From the NCBI GenBank assembly GCA_021234155.1, contig JAJEKV010000051.1, positions 6,918,761 to 6,982,760 of the forward strand: a stretch of 64,000 nucleotides of DNA, read 5' to 3'. The translations under genes and the position numbers were made by a program. Shown one piece after another: positions 5,009-37,146 of this stretch. This DNA comes from Isoetes taiwanensis (taxonomy: Eukaryota > Streptophyta > Lycopodiopsida > Isoetales > Isoetaceae). Numbering within the stretch: position 1 is the first letter of the stretch; each line of letters starts with the position of its first letter. The notes below the pieces were generated by a model. It saw only the letters and a list, made by a program, of their open reading frames with translations, ran no database searches and had not been told where the DNA came from.

Positions 5009-5409
5009 CTTTTTTTTTTTTTTTTTTTGAAAGTAAGAGTTGGTTTTATCATTAATTATGAAATCTCAAAATACATAGCAAAGGTATGCTTTTAGGAAAA
5101 GCATATCAAAATTATAGTCAAATCCAAACCAATTGATAGAGAGTGTAAAACAGAGTGTAAAATAATGTCTGCACTTTAAGGAAGAAGGTCGATCAGTAGC
5201 CACCCGTAGGAGGATGAAATGGAAGTAGGTAATTAGTAAGTCGCTTTTCCGGAACTGAACCGATTTCAACGAGCAGAACAAGATTGTTGAGGATTCTCGA
5301 AAGATTATGAACCTGCCAAAAATGTAATCCACCAAAAAAGTAAACCAGAACTAAATTAGATAAAAGCCAGTATATGCTTCTTAGTTTGAAGGCCAAATGG
5401 ACAGGGATT

Positions 5410-5875
5410 TCAGCAATGATCTGAGAAGTAAGAGTTGAAGTAGGCATTAAAGGCATCTGTGGAGCCAAAGAAGTATTGATCAAGGGGCCAATTGTTGTAG
5501 TAATAGAGTCGGAACATATCCCTGTCCTCCAGAAGAATTAGCAATGATCCATATAGATCAGCCAGTAACTTATGGCTGTAGTATAGTGTTCTATATCTTG
5601 AGAGCTGAGCTTCTGTGAGAATTCGATTATTGGCTGACAGGAATTTCCACAAGAAATGGATCTGGATGACCTCCCTGCAAAATATACTTGCCCACAAATC
5701 TTCACTTTCTTTCTTGTAACTCATACGTCCTCTTTTCATCAGGAATGACTCCATTGAAGTGGCAATGTCATTTTTCATGACTTGATCCAGAGATCTCATT
5801 TGAAAAGGTGAATTCTTTGGTATCAAGTTTATTGCTTCCTTCTCCTCGTAAGAAATTAAGATACTCTAGGATCAT
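5410..5875 (-). pseudogene. LINE-A ORF3, conserved ORF after ORF2
   Basis: A third reading frame begins with an ATG (5,873-5,875) that overlaps the ORF2 end by 20 bases and starts MILEYL. One frame change near 5,770-5,800 separates this start from the long open stretch ending ...NSYFSDHC at 5,410. LINE-C has the same ORF unbroken. The two proteins are about 71% identical over 125 residues (89 matches counted by eye), while third codon positions have turned over extensively. This points to selection on the protein. It is mostly helical-looking, rich in Leu and aromatic residues, and has no signal peptide or domain that I recognise. Its role is unknown. Confidence 0.75.
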
Positions 5876-8800
5876 CAGAAAGAAATAAGTTAGAGTCCAC
5901 AACATTTAGATTGGAAGCAAACAAATCATAGTGACCCCTATACAAACCATAGTCTTCCCATTTCCTGTCAAAATTAGCACCAAATTTCTTTTTATGTGCT
6001 GTAGCAATAGTCTCAAAATCAAACTGAAAGTGCAATTTTATCCAGAAGATGGACACATTCTTTTTACCATATAACACCCGATTCCTTTCTTTCCAAGTGT
6101 TCCAAAGGGCAATATTAATAACTGTATTGACAAATTTATTATCATGATTCATAAGGGACATAAGATCCTCATTAATTTCAATCCCAAATTTGTCAGAGAA
6201 CCAAGACCAGAAACCATTTAGGGTGCTACAGAAGAAAATATGGCACATGTCCTCAGGCCTATTACAAGCTAAAGGGCAATTAGCAGAAATATTCGGGTTT
6301 CTTCTGAACATGGAGACCAGATTGTTTAGACTGCCATTAGCAATGAGCCAAATGAAATATGAGACTTTTGGAGGACAATAAGAATGCTAAACATTATGAA
6401 ATAATTTTTTAAGCTGATCATAAGTAATAGACCATTTCAGCATAGCTTTACACCCCTCAATGTTGGAAGTCATGGCATTGTAAACATTTTTCACTTTGTA
6501 ATCCCCTTTTTCATTTACCCTCCAGTCACTTTTTCCAGAGTTGACAGATAAGTTTGAGAGGAAGGGTTTGATGAAAGAATAAATTTTCTTATCAGAAGAG
6601 GTGCCTCTAATAATACCTTTCAATCTAGTCCAAGAAATGATTCTACCACATACAAACATGTCTCTGATATAAACTAAACCAGCCTCATGCCATTTCTTAT
6701 AAATTCTGGGATGCTTGATAGCAAAAGGGGAGAATTTTGCTTTCGATCATGATGGGGTTCCAGAAGATTGGAACATCAGAATGTAGCTCTTCTCTTTTAA
6801 TGAAATGGAAATTAGGAGAGATAGCATTCTAAGCCTTGATGAGATTGTGCATAAGAGGGGAAATCTTTGGGACTGGTTTTGATTGATTGAAAGCGAGAAT
6901 GAGGAAGCGAGATGATGGATTGAGGGGTGACCACAAGGGTGACTTAAAGATATCAATACGATAAAGATATAAGTAGGAGATTGATTCCCATGTATTGCTT
7001 TCCAAATGAGCTTGCCCGACAAGAGATTGAGCTTGGATAAAAGATTCTTGCAACCTAAACCTCCGAGACTTTAGGCTTACATATGGAATTCCAATTAACG
7101 GATGACTTCCCTTCGGATGAAATTCCTAATTATCTTCTCAAGCTCCAAATAAACATATTTGGGAGCTACTAGAGCTAATGGAAAAGTAGACATGAGAACT
7201 GGCAAGAACAGCATTTGCAATGATAGATCTACCTGCAAGAGAGAGATAATTTCCATAATTGTTCAACTTCTTTTTGATTCTCGAAATAATAGGATCGAGA
7301 GGCCTTTGATGCTATGATTCAAAGCTATAGGCAATCAGTAATTTGGTTGCACGATTAGTAGGAAGGACATTGATACCAGCTAGAACCGGAGTCTGCGAGG
7401 TCACCAATGATCATACTTTTACACAAATTCAATTGGATACGAGGAGGCGTGAGAGAATTGTCTTAAGATCTTAAGAAAAAGATTGATATTTTGAAGATCA
7501 GCATCCAGGAAGGAGAAGGTATCATCAGCATATTGGAGAATGGATATACTATCATGAGAATTTGGAAGTTTTAAACCTTTCAACTGAGCATTATTACGAT
7601 AATCTGAGTGACCTTGGTTAAAAGCTCGTGACCACAAAAAAAGATAAGGAGCTAGAGGACATCCTTGTCTAACTCCACAAGAGAGAGGAAAGAAGCGGAA
7701 GGGACACCATTGATGAGAACGGCCGAGAATTGGACCTAGAGTTTAGACCATGTATAAGATTCATGAGTTTGGGATGAAAGCCCAATTTAGACATGGCAAA
7801 ATCCAAGAAATCCCACCTCCACAGAATCAAAGGCTCTTTTAAAATCCCGGCTTGAGAAGAATACAGTTTTGATTCGAGATTTTGTTCAGTCTGAGACCTT
7901 CCATAGCGACCACATAATTATCAAGATATATCTATTTGGAAGGAAGGCTGATTGGTTTTGGCTAATATTCCTTTGAAGGAAGCTTTTGATTCTCGGGGCA
8001 ATGATCTTAGCACAGAGCTTATAAGTGGTGTTGGTGAGAGAGATGGGTCTCAGATCTGAAACTTGGAAGGATGATCAGCTTTAGGAATCAGGAGAGATAA
8101 ACCCTTTGGAAATTAAAGGATGCAAATGATTATCATTCGAAGGCATGGACAAGGGAGATAACATCGTTTTGAGTATATCGAACTTGATGTAAAATTCAGT
8201 GGGGAAGGCCATCTGGCCCAGGAGATTTGCCCTTGCTGAAGGAATTTAGAATCTCATAAATCTCATTGTGAGATGGAATGGCAGTGATAGCATCATCCAT
8301 GATTTCACTAGGCTCAGGAAGAATAGAATCCACAGTGGAGATAAACTCATTGGCTTCTGAAGCCATGTTGGGGTCAATTGGCTTGTCACTAAAGATATCC
8401 ATATATCTGCTCTTGAAGAAATTTGCAATTTCAGAATGAGTACTATAATTGTTACCCTGATCATCAAAAGTCTCAGCAATGGAATTTCTAAGAACCCTAC
8501 TCTTGGCAACCCTGAAGAAGAATTTTGAGGAGCTAGAGTCCATTTCATTAGTATACTTAATTTTACATCTAATAGCTGAGCCCTTAGCTTCCAACTCCTC
8601 AATATTCTTAATTCTTCTCTCTAATATTTCCTCACCTACATGAAGGTTATAATTAGAAGGATCATTCTGAAGAAGAGACCTAATATCCTTCATATACACT
8701 AGGAGCTGGTTTTTTTCCTTACTTCTCTCCTCCTTGATAATTTTAGACCAGTTTTTAATCCACCCTTTGATTTGTCTGATCTTGGAGTAAAAACATTTCA

Positions 8801-9633
8801 TAGAGGGCAATTGATTACCAGCAACCACATTTGAATTATTGGAGAGAGTCTCATAAAAGGATCTGAAATGAGAGCAAAATTTCTCATTCTCCAGCAGAGA
8901 GGAATTGAACTTGTAAGGCGTGCTCCCTTCTCTTTTAATGTTGATGACATGAGAAGTATGAAGGAACTGGGGCTGATGATCAGAAATGGAAGTTCCTTCA
9001 TCACTTGTAACATAGTTGTTGTCCCAGAAGGATGCAGAAGGGTTGGAGACATAAAATCTGTCCAGAGTGCAGAAAACTCTTGCTTTATCCTTTTGTTTGT
9101 TCGACCAAGTGTAGGTGGCAGTAGAGGACATACATGTGGGGGAAGGGACAACAGTTCTGAACATATTGATTTTATTTCCCAGTTTAAGATCCCAAGATGG
9201 AGTATTGTTGAAGTCACCAGCAATAATCCAATTTTTCAAGAGATTGAGAATCCAGCCAGGAATTCATTTCAGCCCAAATTGGTTCTCTATCTTTGGGTGA
9301 GGTAGGAGCATAGACATTGATAATGCCAAATCTGGAGTTAGAAACCGAGCAAATCATGGCTTGCCAGGCTCTTGAGGGACTGTTATAAAAGGAAGAGTGA
9401 TTGATACCTTTCTTCCAGATAATGGCCATTCCACCACTTGCTCCAGATGAGCTGATCCAAATAGAGGTAGAATTAGGATAAATCCACTCCCCTAAGTTAC
9501 TACATTCAAAGGAGGGAAGTTTAAGTTCTTGAAGGATAATGATGTCTGCATTATATTGCCTAATTTGAGCAATGGCTCTTCTCCTTTTTAGAGGGCCTTT
9601 AATTCCTCTGAGATTCCAGGAAAGAATCTTCAT
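5856..9633 (-). pseudogene. LINE-A ORF2: endonuclease-reverse transcriptase
   Basis: ORF2 nicks the target and primes reverse transcription from it. The span equals about 1,259 codons, normal for plant L1. The N-terminal APE-type endonuclease starts MKILSWNLRGIKG with LQELKLP (9,633 to about 9,100) and GDFNNTPS near 9,200. RT follows with SPGPDGLP (about 8,205-8,230) and QYADD at 7,521-7,535. The C-terminus is a zf-RVT domain with NPNISANCPLACN...HIFFC (about 6,200-6,310), ending DDPRVS at 5,856. Several frame changes and stops between 6,700 and 9,240 make it inactive. Its last 20 bases overlap the start of the third ORF. Confidence 0.92.
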
Positions 9634-9813: not shown

Positions 9814-10008
9814 AAAGGAAGGAAGGAAGGAAGGAAGTTTATTTTAACGTCCACGGAGGCCAGAGGCCTATGAGACGGTACATGCAGAGAACAGGCAAAA
9901 AAGCCAAAAACCCCAACACCAAAAACAAACAATGTAACTGTACAGTAGAACCCTACTACCGGGATGAAAAAACCCCCACTTGGGAGGAAAAACCCTAACA
10001 GTAGGCTC

Positions 10009-13000
10009 TCAAATACCATGCCCCCGAAGAGCAAGTCTGACGGCCGAAATCTGCAGGATGTAAGCTCCCAGTCGCGCTACCATAGGTGATGCGAGTAACT
10101 GATGTAGCGGTGTGTCAGAGCATCTAAGATCAGTGTGCACTGCTCGGACATGGGCATATGCTGGGCACCGTTGGAGGGCATGGTGCTCATCCTCTATCAC
10201 GTGCATCTCACAACACTGACATATCCTCTCCTCCCTGGGGATCCCGTGCCCGCCATTCACCCCCCAGCGACCTGTTTCAATTCTGAGGTAATGGGAACCC
10301 GTCCTTATGGCAGCAATAGCTCTCCGTTTCTTCACAGAGATGTGTGCTTTCAAGTACCGATGGGGTCCATGCTCAAGGCCGGGATTAAGCGTGATAGTGC
10401 TCTGTCTTGGGCTTTGCAAGAGTAGAGGCATCCCACGGGGTGGCGGCATAGCCCGCATCCAATTGCCCATTCAGCAAGGAATGCCGGTGCCACCATCATT
10501 TGGTAATCCATAGACCACCTCCTAAACCATCCCTTACGATTGCTTTCGTGCCATACCCTCTTCTTGCATTTGGGGGGCCCTGGCGTTAACAACCACGGCC
10601 TGTGGGGGCAAGCGATGCTCATCCATCCCATCCACCTTATGGAAGCAAGTAAGATGCTGCGCAAGGCGAATCTTTGTAAGGGCGAACCCCGTCTCATACA
10701 ACAAAATCGATACGATGCGGTGTCCTTCACTCCCAAGCTATATGTCAAGAAAGCTTTACGCACCCTTTCCAACCTATCCCCGTGTTTTTGCTAAGCTGGC
10801 GGGCCCCAAACCTCCACCCCATATAGCAGCACCGGCTCGACCAAAGCCCTAAGCGGTGTGCTCTCCTCGCCCGATCCGCGAGAGATCTATCCGGCAACCG
10901 CAGCGTTTTGCCTTTGCATATAAAGCCTTCCGGCACTGCAGCGGCTCTCCTCTCCACACACTCATCCCACGGCATGTTAGTAGTGAAATCAATTCCCGGA
11001 TACTTGAAGCTCGCACCATCTCCACTTCCCGCGTCCCACGTAATATAACTCGGGATAGGGTGTTGCGAGGACAGGATCGAGAAGCTTAGTTTTTGTGCAA
11101 GTTCTTTGTCATTCCGTTGCCCCACGGAACCCCAGGGGCATCCAAATGCTGCTGCATACTGCTGGCCGTGTGGGCTAGCAAAGCTACATCATCCGCATAT
11201 AGCAACTGGCTCACAGAGGTCGCCTCAGATAATTGCACCCCGGCTCCCCCATGGTGCTGCATCCACGTCTCCAAGCTATCAATGTACAACCCAAAAAGCG
11301 TTGGAGACAGCGGGGCAGCCCTGCTTAACTCCCATAGTGCTAGCTACCGCCCGATCTTCATAAGGCGGTGCGGCATGAATCCCATCATAAAGTTGGTGCA
11401 CCCCATTACGCAATCCCCGTGGAACTTCGCCAAGTCTTGCAACCTCGCCCAAAGGCATGTCTCGGGGGCGGTATCATATGCGATCTTAAAATCTACAAAG
11501 CAAACAATACAAGTCTGTCGGCGCATTAGGCTTGCCTCCATCAACACTCTCAAAGTGAAGATATGGTCGATTAGTGGAGTGAGCTGGGCGAAAAGCCCTG
11601 CTGGCCAATTGCCCGCACCCCCGCCTCCTCGGCCCACTTAGTGAGTTTCTTCTCCACCACCCACCGCTAGGAGCTTTGCAAACGGGCCGAGCTTACCATA
11701 ATCATCCGGTAATTAAGCCGGCTCATCCTTATTACCGGCTTTATGCACGGGAACAACCTTACTAACCATCCACTCGGGAGCCCCTCACTCGAGCACGGTT
11801 GATGATCACCGTCCGGGGCCCTACCACTGGATGGGCCACCCCATTTCAACGGCTCGGACTGCAGCCCTGTAAATCCTTTGCCTTGCCATTCGCGGATGCA
11901 CGAGACCTGCTTGGACATCCTCGGCGTGAGCTGCAGCACCTCTCCTACCTGATCCAGGGACCACGGCATTAGCTCACGGGGGTCATATAACTCCCATAGC
12001 GGTGCATCCATTGCTCCACACTTACATTACCAGCCACTGGCGCCACGGTATAACACCTTACGCCAAAAAGCTTTTGGCTCACGCCATGAGCATATCAAGC
12101 GGCTCACGGGTTTTACGCCATGTATCTCCCCTTCTTGGCTTTTAGGAAGAGCTTATAGTCTTGCGGGGCTGTGGCGCGAAGCTGTGGATCTATGACCAAG
12201 CGCAGCTGGCTCTTTAGAGCCTTGCAATCAGCATCAAACCACGGGTTCTCAGGAAAATGCGCGGTGTCCCTCCTTGGAGGGCCCTTCACTGCAAAGGAAG
12301 CCCCGGCCGGTACGCAAGCGGCGCCCTCACCACCATGCACACCTGTCTTGCAGTGTGTAAAAGCTATCAAACCCCTGTAACTCCCGCACCAACACAGATT
12401 CATACTGTCCCTGCTTCTGATAGCGTGGGATGTATAGTAACCCTCCACGCCCCCTGCGCGGTGTCTCCACTATTGAGTGCTCCCAATTCGGCATTGACAT
12501 AAAGCGGGTAGTGATCGACAAAGCCTCCTCATCCCACATTGGCTTGTGCCCTTTGGAGAAGTGTGTAACCATGTCAAGTCTTTGCTACTGGAGCGAGAAG
12601 GTAATCCAACACACTAGCTCCCCATCACGCCTATCACTCCCCGCAAGTAACACCCCCGAGTGTGGCCATCGCTGCATACCATTACAAATTACCATGTCAA
12701 AAACACGGCAGAGCTGGACCGGCCTGCACGCCAAATGGTCTAGCCACCATATCACGGGAGTGCCGTAGGTATCTTTGAGTAGCGGTTGTCTCAAGCCAAA
12801 GCGGATCAGCATTAAGCGTCACCTTGGAAGGTCACCGACCGCAAGCTGCGTCGTCACGAGCATTGAAATCTCCTAGCAAAACACTGTCCCTGGCTGTCTA
12901 TAGCGGTCTATGTCATCATACGAGTTCCTATCGGCATCCGGACATCCGTAATTCCGCATCATGTACTGGTAGAACTTAGAGCTGCATGGGGAATGTAGCG

Positions 13001-35654: not shown

Positions 35655-35669
35655 TAAATTAAGTCTCCT
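35655..35669. repeat. LINE-C target-site duplication, left
   Basis: TAAATTAAGTCTCCT, identical to 37,132-37,146. Confidence 0.95.
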
Positions 35670-36293
35670 AATGCTATGTCCTCTAACATGGATAATTGCA
35701 AAGCTATGCTAAAATGGTCTATTTCTTATGATCAGCTTAAGAGTCTTTTCCATAATGTTTGGAATTCTTATTGTCCTCCAAAAATTTCTTATTTTATCTG
35801 GTTACTTGCTAATGGCAGTCTGAATAATCTGGTCTCTGTTTCCAAAAGAAATCCTAACATCTCAGCAAATTGCCCCTTAAATTGTAATAATCTTGAGGAC
35901 TTTTCTCATATTTTCTTTTGCTGTAAGTTAGATGATTTTTGGAACTGGATTGCTGCTAGATTTGGTATTGGGAATAATGGAGATCTTCTCTCCCTTATTC
36001 AACATAATGATATGTTTACAAATTCAATCATTTACATAGCTTTATGGAATATTTGGAAAGCAAGAAATCGCGTGTTATATGGTCATAAGAATCCTTCTAT
36101 CTTTTGGATTAAGATGCATTTTCAGTTTGACTTTGAGACTATTGCAACTGCTCATAAAAAGAAATTTGGTACTAACTTTGACAGGAAATGGGAGGTCTTT
36201 GGGCAGTTTAGGGGACACTACAGTTTATTTGCTTCAAATCTTAATGTTGTGGATTCTAATTTGTTTCTCACTGATGATCCTAGAGTATCTTGA
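35670..36293 (+). pseudogene. LINE-C ORF2, C-terminal zf-RVT part
   Basis: Open from the truncation point to the stop at 36,291-36,293 with no frame change. It carries the zf-RVT domain of L1 ORF2: WNSYCPPKISYFIWLLANGS, NPNISANCPLNCN and HIFFCCKL, then IYIALWNIWKARNRVLYG, ending DDPRVS as in LINE-A. The endonuclease and RT are missing, so it is a dead-on-arrival copy, although the retained part is undamaged. Confidence 0.9.
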
Positions 36294-36738
36294 ATTCCTG
36301 CGTGGAGAGGGGAGAAATAAATTCGACAGCAGCCAGTCTCCTTTCAGTCAGACTTCAACTGACCACATTATGAAGAATGACATTGCCTCCTCTATGGAAT
36401 CTTTTCTCATGAAAAAAGGGCATAGGAGACACCTGAAAGAAAGTGAAGATTTGTGGGCGAGCATTTTTTGCAGAGAGGTTGTGCAACTTCATTGCCTTTG
36501 GATGTTTCTGTCAATCAACAATTTCCTTCTTAATGAGACTCAGCTGACTAGGTACAGAACCATGTACTATAACCACAAACTGTTGGCCGACCTCTATGGT
36601 TCTCTTCTTTTGCTCTTGGAAGGAAGAGACATGTTCCGTCTATGCTACCATAATAATTGGGCACCCAATCATTATCTTTTCGGGACTACAGATGGATTCA
36701 ATGCATACTTCAATTCTGTCTTCTCATCCCAGACCTGA
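36274..36738 (+). CDS. LINE-C ORF3, intact 154-codon ORF overlapping ORF2
   Basis: The ATG at 36,274 overlaps the ORF2 end by 20 bases (frame +1) and opens MILEYLEFLRGEGRNKFD. LINE-A has the same overlap and start (MILEYLNFLRGEGSNK). The protein runs to ...YFNSVFSSQT and is conserved with LINE-A through MKNDIA, KESEDLWASIFCREV, HKLLADLYGSLL, RDMFRL and FNAYFNS. Silent differences are frequent in the aligned codons. No membrane segment, zinc site or catalytic signature is visible. It could be reached by termination-reinitiation or a frameshift at the overlap. The frame is also open upstream by chance. Function unknown. Confidence 0.7.
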   Translation: MILEYLEFLRGEGRNKFDSSQSPFSQTSTDHIMKNDIASSMESFLMKKGHRRHLKESEDLWASIFCREVVQLHCLWMFLSINNFLLNETQLTRYRTMYYNHKLLADLYGSLLLLLEGRDMFRLCYHNNWAPNHYLFGTTDGFNAYFNSVFSSQT

Positions 36739-37131
36739 TATATCCTTGTTGTTGGCCCATCCTCCAGGAAACACGTCTTTGCTCTTATTTGATTTAGTGC
36801 TGGCTTACCTTTTTGGTGGATTCAATTTTGGCAGGTTATCAGTACTCTCTCAAGGTTCTCAAATTCTACACGGCATTGTAGAGGTTACAAAATTTTTCTA
36901 TACTCCAAGAATGGGAGTACCATCGGATCTTCTTAAGTGTAGCTGCTCATTATTCTGACTCATCCTTTTCACTGGATACAAACTCTTTTAAGTGTCCTGT
37001 TATTACTGTTATTGGCTGATTCTGATACACTTTTTGGTATGCTTAGTTTAAGGGCATGCTATTACATTGTATCTCTGAGATTTTATAATTAATGACAAAA
37101 CCAACTCTTACTTTCAAAAAAAAAATAATAA

Positions 37132-37146
37132 TAAATTAAGTCTCCT
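37132..37146. repeat. LINE-C target-site duplication, right
   Basis: TAAATTAAGTCTCCT, identical to 35,655-35,669. Confidence 0.95.

Follow-up and report, generated by a model that had tools for sequence, protein, structure and literature searches.

Two L1-type insertions with an ORF beyond ORF2

The window, a 64,000-nucleotide stretch of the Isoetes taiwanensis genome, contains two copies of an L1-type LINE with coding sequence beyond the end of ORF2. LINE-C, on the plus strand (35670 to 37132), is a 5'-truncated insertion that comprises the ORF2 tail, ORF3, a 3' UTR, and an A-rich tail; its limits were set from the direct repeats that flank it, a 14-bp target-site duplication found at 35656 to 35669 and, directly after the A-rich tail, at 37133 to 37146. 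The C-terminal part of ORF2 (35670 to 36293) includes a zf-RVT domain (Pfam PF13966, E = 1.4e-11) and terminates with a stop codon at 36291 to 36293. ORF3 (36274 to 36738), identified by ORF reading and codon tests, has an ATG at 36274, 154 codons (154 aa) with no internal stops, and a stop codon that ends at 36738. ORF3 and ORF2 share 20 nt at their junction: the ORF2 stop codon is 17 nt downstream of the ORF3 ATG, and ORF3 is read in the +1 frame with respect to ORF2. The 3' UTR (36739 to 37115) and the A-rich tail, which is interrupted by T (37116 to 37132), were assigned by reading. Just upstream of the A tail, a hairpin-like 3' end of the ATGCTT...AAGCAT type was observed at 37036 to 37059 (plus strand) and at about 5083 to 5107 (minus strand); it was seen by eye in several copies, with paired changes in genomic copy L043, and it could be a recognition site for the reverse transcriptase (RT).

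The second copy, LINE-A, is on the minus strand. One ORF2 part (8196 to 9263) weakly matches the APE-type endonuclease domain expected at the ORF2 N terminus (PF03372, E = 0.00041; 20.6 bits, under the curated cut-off of 24.5), and the C-terminal part lies downstream of an in-frame TAG (5856 to 6386; zf-RVT, E = 3.2e-8). The ORF3 homologue spans 5410 to 5875 by ORF reading. The initial annotation placed an ORF after ORF2 in both copies; a homologue is indeed present in both, but that of LINE-A is not a single open frame, because its start (5875 to 5801) and its remainder (5811 to 5410) are in different frames. Beyond LINE-A, positions 9990 to 12700 (minus strand) contain frames of another reverse-transcriptase element with an ADDV motif; these frames did not match the RT query from genomic copy L041.

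ORF3 is coding and under purifying selection

Recounting the ORF3 proteins of LINE-A and LINE-C gave 93 identical residues among 130 aligned, in line with the earlier count of 89 of 125. As had been claimed, residues are kept while third bases change: 52 of the 93 identical residues have a synonymous codon difference, and differences at codon positions 1, 2, and 3 number 27, 19, and 74. With a pairwise codon model (own script), dN/dS was 0.042 over 130 codons (a likelihood ratio of 107.9 when tested against 1), far below the value near 1 that would speak against selection. As controls, the remaining two frames of this alignment gave 1.98 and 5.70. The adjoining ORF2 tail gave 0.080 (169 codons).

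Twenty-two further ORF3 proteins from the genome are 70 to 95% identical to the window protein, and 60 columns are invariant among these 23 proteins (alignment A2). For codon work on this first family, 22 of 43 loci were picked by hand, and the 13 with a clean ORF2 frame were used. Seventeen hand-picked diverged pairs among these 13 copies gave dN/dS values of 0.028 to 0.10 (median, 0.054; likelihood ratios, 75 to 157) for ORF3 and similar values for the ORF2 tail (0.060; range, 0.02 to 0.13). The values are approximate, because dS is saturated (>2) in most pairs; the tests against 1 are still strong.

A sister family (L044 and L045) was reached via longer copies that carry a further ORF, ORF0 (see below). 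Its ORF3 is open in L044 and broken in L045, is 32 to 36% identical to the window protein, starts before ORF2 has ended, in the frame relation seen in the first family, and in most rows has M-x-hydrophobic-x-Y-L at its N terminus. Seven of 20 loci were used for codon work; over 21 pairs of these 7 loci, the median dN/dS was 0.24, with likelihood ratios of 13 to 47. Selection is weaker here than in the first family, and the purifying selection originally proposed for the window pair extends to both. Across 37 ORF3 rows of both families (alignment A3, which leaves out the damaged, longer, or ATG-less L045, L057, L064, and L072 as well as near-duplicate first-family copies), 12 columns are invariant, and the best-conserved block is about FCREVVQ ... 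YYxHxLLADLYGSLL.

The ORF3 frame is usually open among the best 150 of 3211 first-look candidates, a set biased to intact copies because it holds the best matches: 122 have no stop and 28 have one to three, although the match to a frameshifted copy may cover only part of it and so contain no stop. In a neutral simulation with substitutions only, 1.5 to 5% of frames were open at 20 to 28% nucleotide divergence; since the 150 are the top-scoring matches, this comparison is only indicative.

The protein and profile searches pointed to no significant relative. For ORF3, Pfam and PDB sequences gave no significant match, nor did PHROGs and NCBIfam, for which three ORF3 proteins were used; viral and prokaryote contigs gave pattern matches only and no relative by tblastn; and in profile comparison ORF3 showed no link to the ORF2 tail, ORF1, or ORF0. 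The structure was predicted twice, each time from just the two window copies; both models were all-helical with low confidence (mean pLDDT, 52 and 48) and support no more than a helical content. The pI was 4.4 to 6.6 in eight ORF3 proteins, which makes a basic nucleic-acid coat unlikely. Several candidate assignments were discarded. DNA ligase 4 (E = 0.13 with a single sequence) was gone with the 23-protein profile, and the PES4 RNA-binding domain fell from E = 0.02 with 23 proteins to 0.18 with 37. Pfam matches of the 37 members are attributable to chance (DUF7412 in four, best E = 0.023; Terpene_synth in one, E = 0.0054; the rest weaker). A zinc site was likewise rejected, with just one Cys and one His kept in at least 90% of the 37 rows.

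Organization and distribution of the ORF3 lineage

Three longer copies (L041, L043, and L044) have the order ORF0, ORF1, ORF2, ORF3. The "third ORF" of the initial annotation is therefore real as an extra ORF after ORF2, but the longer copies show four ORFs, ORF0 being upstream of ORF1. ORF0 encodes 98 to 108 aa from an ATG (L041, 364 to 690; L043, 1143 to 1439; L044, 245 to 541). None of the three copies is intact: ORF1 and ORF2 are split in all three, and ORF3 of L041 is frame-shifted near its end. ORF2 of L041 matches RVT_1 (E = 8.3e-32) followed by zf-RVT (PF13966, E = 4.5e-12), and ORF1 matches DUF4283 under the curated cut-off (E = 1.7e-4 in L041 and 5.4e-6 in L044) and, in L041 only, the zinc knuckle zf-CCHC_3 (E = 0.029). 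Flanking direct repeats of L041, L043, and L044 are 14, 18, and 11 bp, with one mismatch each, and the 11 bp of L044 are weak; a 10-bp repeat match of L045, at 712, is doubtful and lies inside the element. In L042, a 447-aa open frame at 631 to 1974, which we take to resemble a Harbinger-type transposase, is perhaps nested in the LINE.

ORF0 had no significant family match in Pfam or, with one ORF0 tested, in PHROGs and NCBIfam (best PHROG, E = 0.018). Ten of 16 ORF0 frames were used for codon work (L074 and L086 failed the ORF0 motif filter); dN/dS was 0.035 to 0.154 in 5 of 10 pairs, and dS was saturated in the other 5. Genome matches to ORF0 (150 scored) are 52 to 100% identical, and a good part of them list stops. 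Among the first 40, 26 have an ORF3 match on the same strand at most 13 kb downstream. Ten of the 14 remaining loci were inspected: five have ORF3 remains, mostly partial or broken, one has sequence that stops short of ORF3, and four show no trace of the element at the expected ORF3 place.

Five further copies, L088 to L092 (C598, C907, C990, C974, and C531), have internal deletions that bring ORF0 and a piece of ORF1 next to the end of ORF2, with ORF3 behind it, and they adjoin a GGAATATTCC-type array. We considered whether they form an amplified short nonautonomous family that keeps ORF3 for a function in cis, and rejected this. In all five the upstream array is similar, downstream flanks are shared in two groups, and there is no clear poly(A) tail, as would fit repeated copying of a larger unit by duplication; ORF3 is damaged in four of the five.

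ORF3 is confined to one group of the LINEs compared here. Eight of eight other LINE copies, drawn from 150 zf-RVT matches, had no ORF3 match better than E = 1 within ~2 kb downstream (HMM of A3, filters off); RT sequences from seven of the eight represent about four families. In an unrooted RT tree of 12 elements, all from I. taiwanensis, the five ORF3 carriers form one group (support, 0.998), with RT identities of 56 to 95% within the group and 32 to 42% to the other elements. The simplest reading of this single group is that ORF3 was gained once in the lineage. Between the two ORF3 families, RT identity is 56 to 69% and ORF3 identity is 32 to 36%, so that ORF3 diverges faster.

The claim that plant L1 elements normally have two ORFs agrees with the description of Celine of poplar, with DUF4283 in ORF1, in excerpts of the published account (PMC11288735). 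As far as those excerpts go, the quillwort lineage resembles Celine in its ORF1 DUF4283 (here just under the cut-off), its ORF2 RT and putative endonuclease (here a weak match under the cut-off), its poly(A) tail, and its target-site duplications; unlike the two-ORF Celine, it has an ORF0 upstream of ORF1 and an ORF3 that overlaps the end of ORF2, and thereby departs from the two-ORF plan. Partial accounts of other elements offer further comparisons. Some plant L1 elements have a C-terminal archaeal-like RNase H in ORF2 (Smyshlyaev 2013, as cited in PMC4686597) and likewise gained a coding unit behind the RT region, but there it is a known enzyme and part of ORF2, whereas ORF3 is a separate overlapping ORF with no relative found. 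Insect R1-type LINEs with a viral helicase domain (PMC4686597) also carry accessory coding sequence at the ORF2 3' end, but as part of the ORF2 protein, while ORF3 is separate. No LINE with a distinct conserved ORF downstream of ORF2 turned up in the searched parts of the open-licence literature, and the portion of the Isoetes sinensis paper considered here names LINEs only as a repeat class.

Translation and possible role of ORF3

The ORF3 start is ATG in 56 of 60 rows (58 distinct loci), a count made without L040, L044, L045, L071, and L073; ATG is present in L044, L045, and L073 and absent from L071, and no start was recognized in L040. The overlap of stop and start is kept among copies in both families. 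Measured from the first base of the ORF3 start codon, the ORF2-frame stop ends at 20 nt in 41 of the 42 rows of the first family and at 29, 35, 44, or 56 nt in all 18 sister rows. Position −3 of the ORF3 ATG holds C, a poor initiation context, in 40 of the 42 rows of the first family; in the sister family it holds G or A in 17 of 18. Over the first ten codons of ORF3, a stretch that takes in the overlap, third positions differ by a mean of 0.28, versus 0.37 to 0.59 in later codons; the value for one block of ORF2, codons −39 to −30, is 0.18. An RNA element at the junction, sought as extra conservation of synonymous sites, was not adopted, the signal (0.28 versus 0.37 to 0.59) being too weak.

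That ORF3 is a genuine additional protein gene of one L1-type lineage, fourth in order, follows from its open, codon-selected frame in many diverged copies. For its translation mode and function, we infer, at roughly even chances, that it is an accessory gene made by termination-reinitiation, with a product that is probably a partner of ORF2p or its RNP. Ribosomes on the full-length RNA would finish ORF2 at its stop codon and reinitiate at the ORF3 ATG just upstream, and each ORF3 protein would be made on an RNA on which ORF2 had just been completed. Synthesis only where ORF2 has just finished would suggest a partner of ORF2p or the RNP in cis. The small, probably helical, neutral-to-acidic ORF3p would most likely act in cis with ORF2p in the RNP, in assembly, import, or target-primed reverse transcription; the position of the gene and the presumed coupling are what point to this role. 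A stop-start arrangement of this kind is familiar from SART1, which couples ORF1 to ORF2. Stop-restart precedents given in part of a published account are caliciviruses, influenza B, and SART1 (PMC5972666); the ORF3 lineage is like SART1 in being a non-LTR element with overlapping stop and start and unlike it in that the overlap, seen here in sequence, involves ORF2 and a further ORF and is 20 to 56 nt long.

A product directed at the host, which might counter silencing or RNA interference, rather than at ORF2p is somewhat unlikely but is the alternative we take most seriously. VANC proteins of VANDAL transposons would be comparable in role. No replication protein in Pfam, PHROGs, NCBIfam, or PDB sequences is significantly similar to ORF3, ORF3 diverges faster than RT between the families, and the protein is not basic; all three points are consistent with a host target. 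Coupling to ORF2, however, would limit the amount of such a protein and tie it to each RNA, and a dN/dS near 0.05 in the first family gives no sign of an arms race.

It is improbable that ORF3 is instead a C-terminal extension of ORF2 that ribosomes produce by a programmed +1 frameshift close to the ORF2 stop. In favor of it, the ORF3 frame is +1 wherever tested, and in the first family the last sense codon of ORF2 is TCT or CCT and the stop is TGA, TAA, or TAG; a few copies read from ORF2 into ORF3 in one frame (L003, L013/L042, and L040, as seen directly; L005, L007, and L009, by frame length only). A fusion needs no ATG, yet those 56 of 60 rows retain it even though the two families end ORF2 differently, and for this reason restart after termination is favored over frameshifting. 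The single-frame copies apparently arose by indels, the ORF2 tail being altered or shortened in L003, L042, and L040.

The location of ORF3 directly behind ORF2, together with the C-terminal domains such as RNase H that plant L1 ORF2 is known to gain (PMC4686597, in part), could also mean that ORF3 was once an ordinary C-terminal domain of L1 ORF2 and has become detached as a frame of its own. We regard this as quite improbable: ORF2 of copies without ORF3 ends roughly 80 to 100 residues past zf-RVT (119 in the ORF3 lineage) with no ORF3-like sequence downstream, and the ORF3 profile is unlike the ORF2 tail, ORF1, or ORF0. That ORF3 is leftover homology or an RNA element, with no protein made, is hardly credible, for despite the frameshift in LINE-A and the damage in four of five deletion derivatives, the third-position bias, the dN/dS values, the control frames, and frames that are open across about one-third identity argue against it.

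With ORF3 as an accessory gene expressed by reinitiation, a broader proposal, which we hold more tentatively, is that this is a four-gene LINE lineage in which ORF0 and ORF3 may encode two accessory proteins unknown elsewhere, selected through a long radiation, ORF3 by way of ORF2-coupled reinitiation. Such a plan, if true, would be comparable to those of complex retroviruses or of transposons with anti-silencing genes. The usual view is that LINEs require an RNA-binding ORF1p and an ORF2p enzyme, with host factors for the remainder. A lineage in which selection maintains one additional protein, and probably two, could show which steps an element may supply itself, and it provides a natural system for asking what ORF3p replaces as well as a eukaryotic candidate for the coupling of overlapping ORFs behind a long ORF. 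Repeat masking would be expected to hide the ORF3 family from gene annotation; for this protein family, with no relative found here, the first look at one genome gave thousands of loose candidates (3211 and 2594, in two lists that may overlap).
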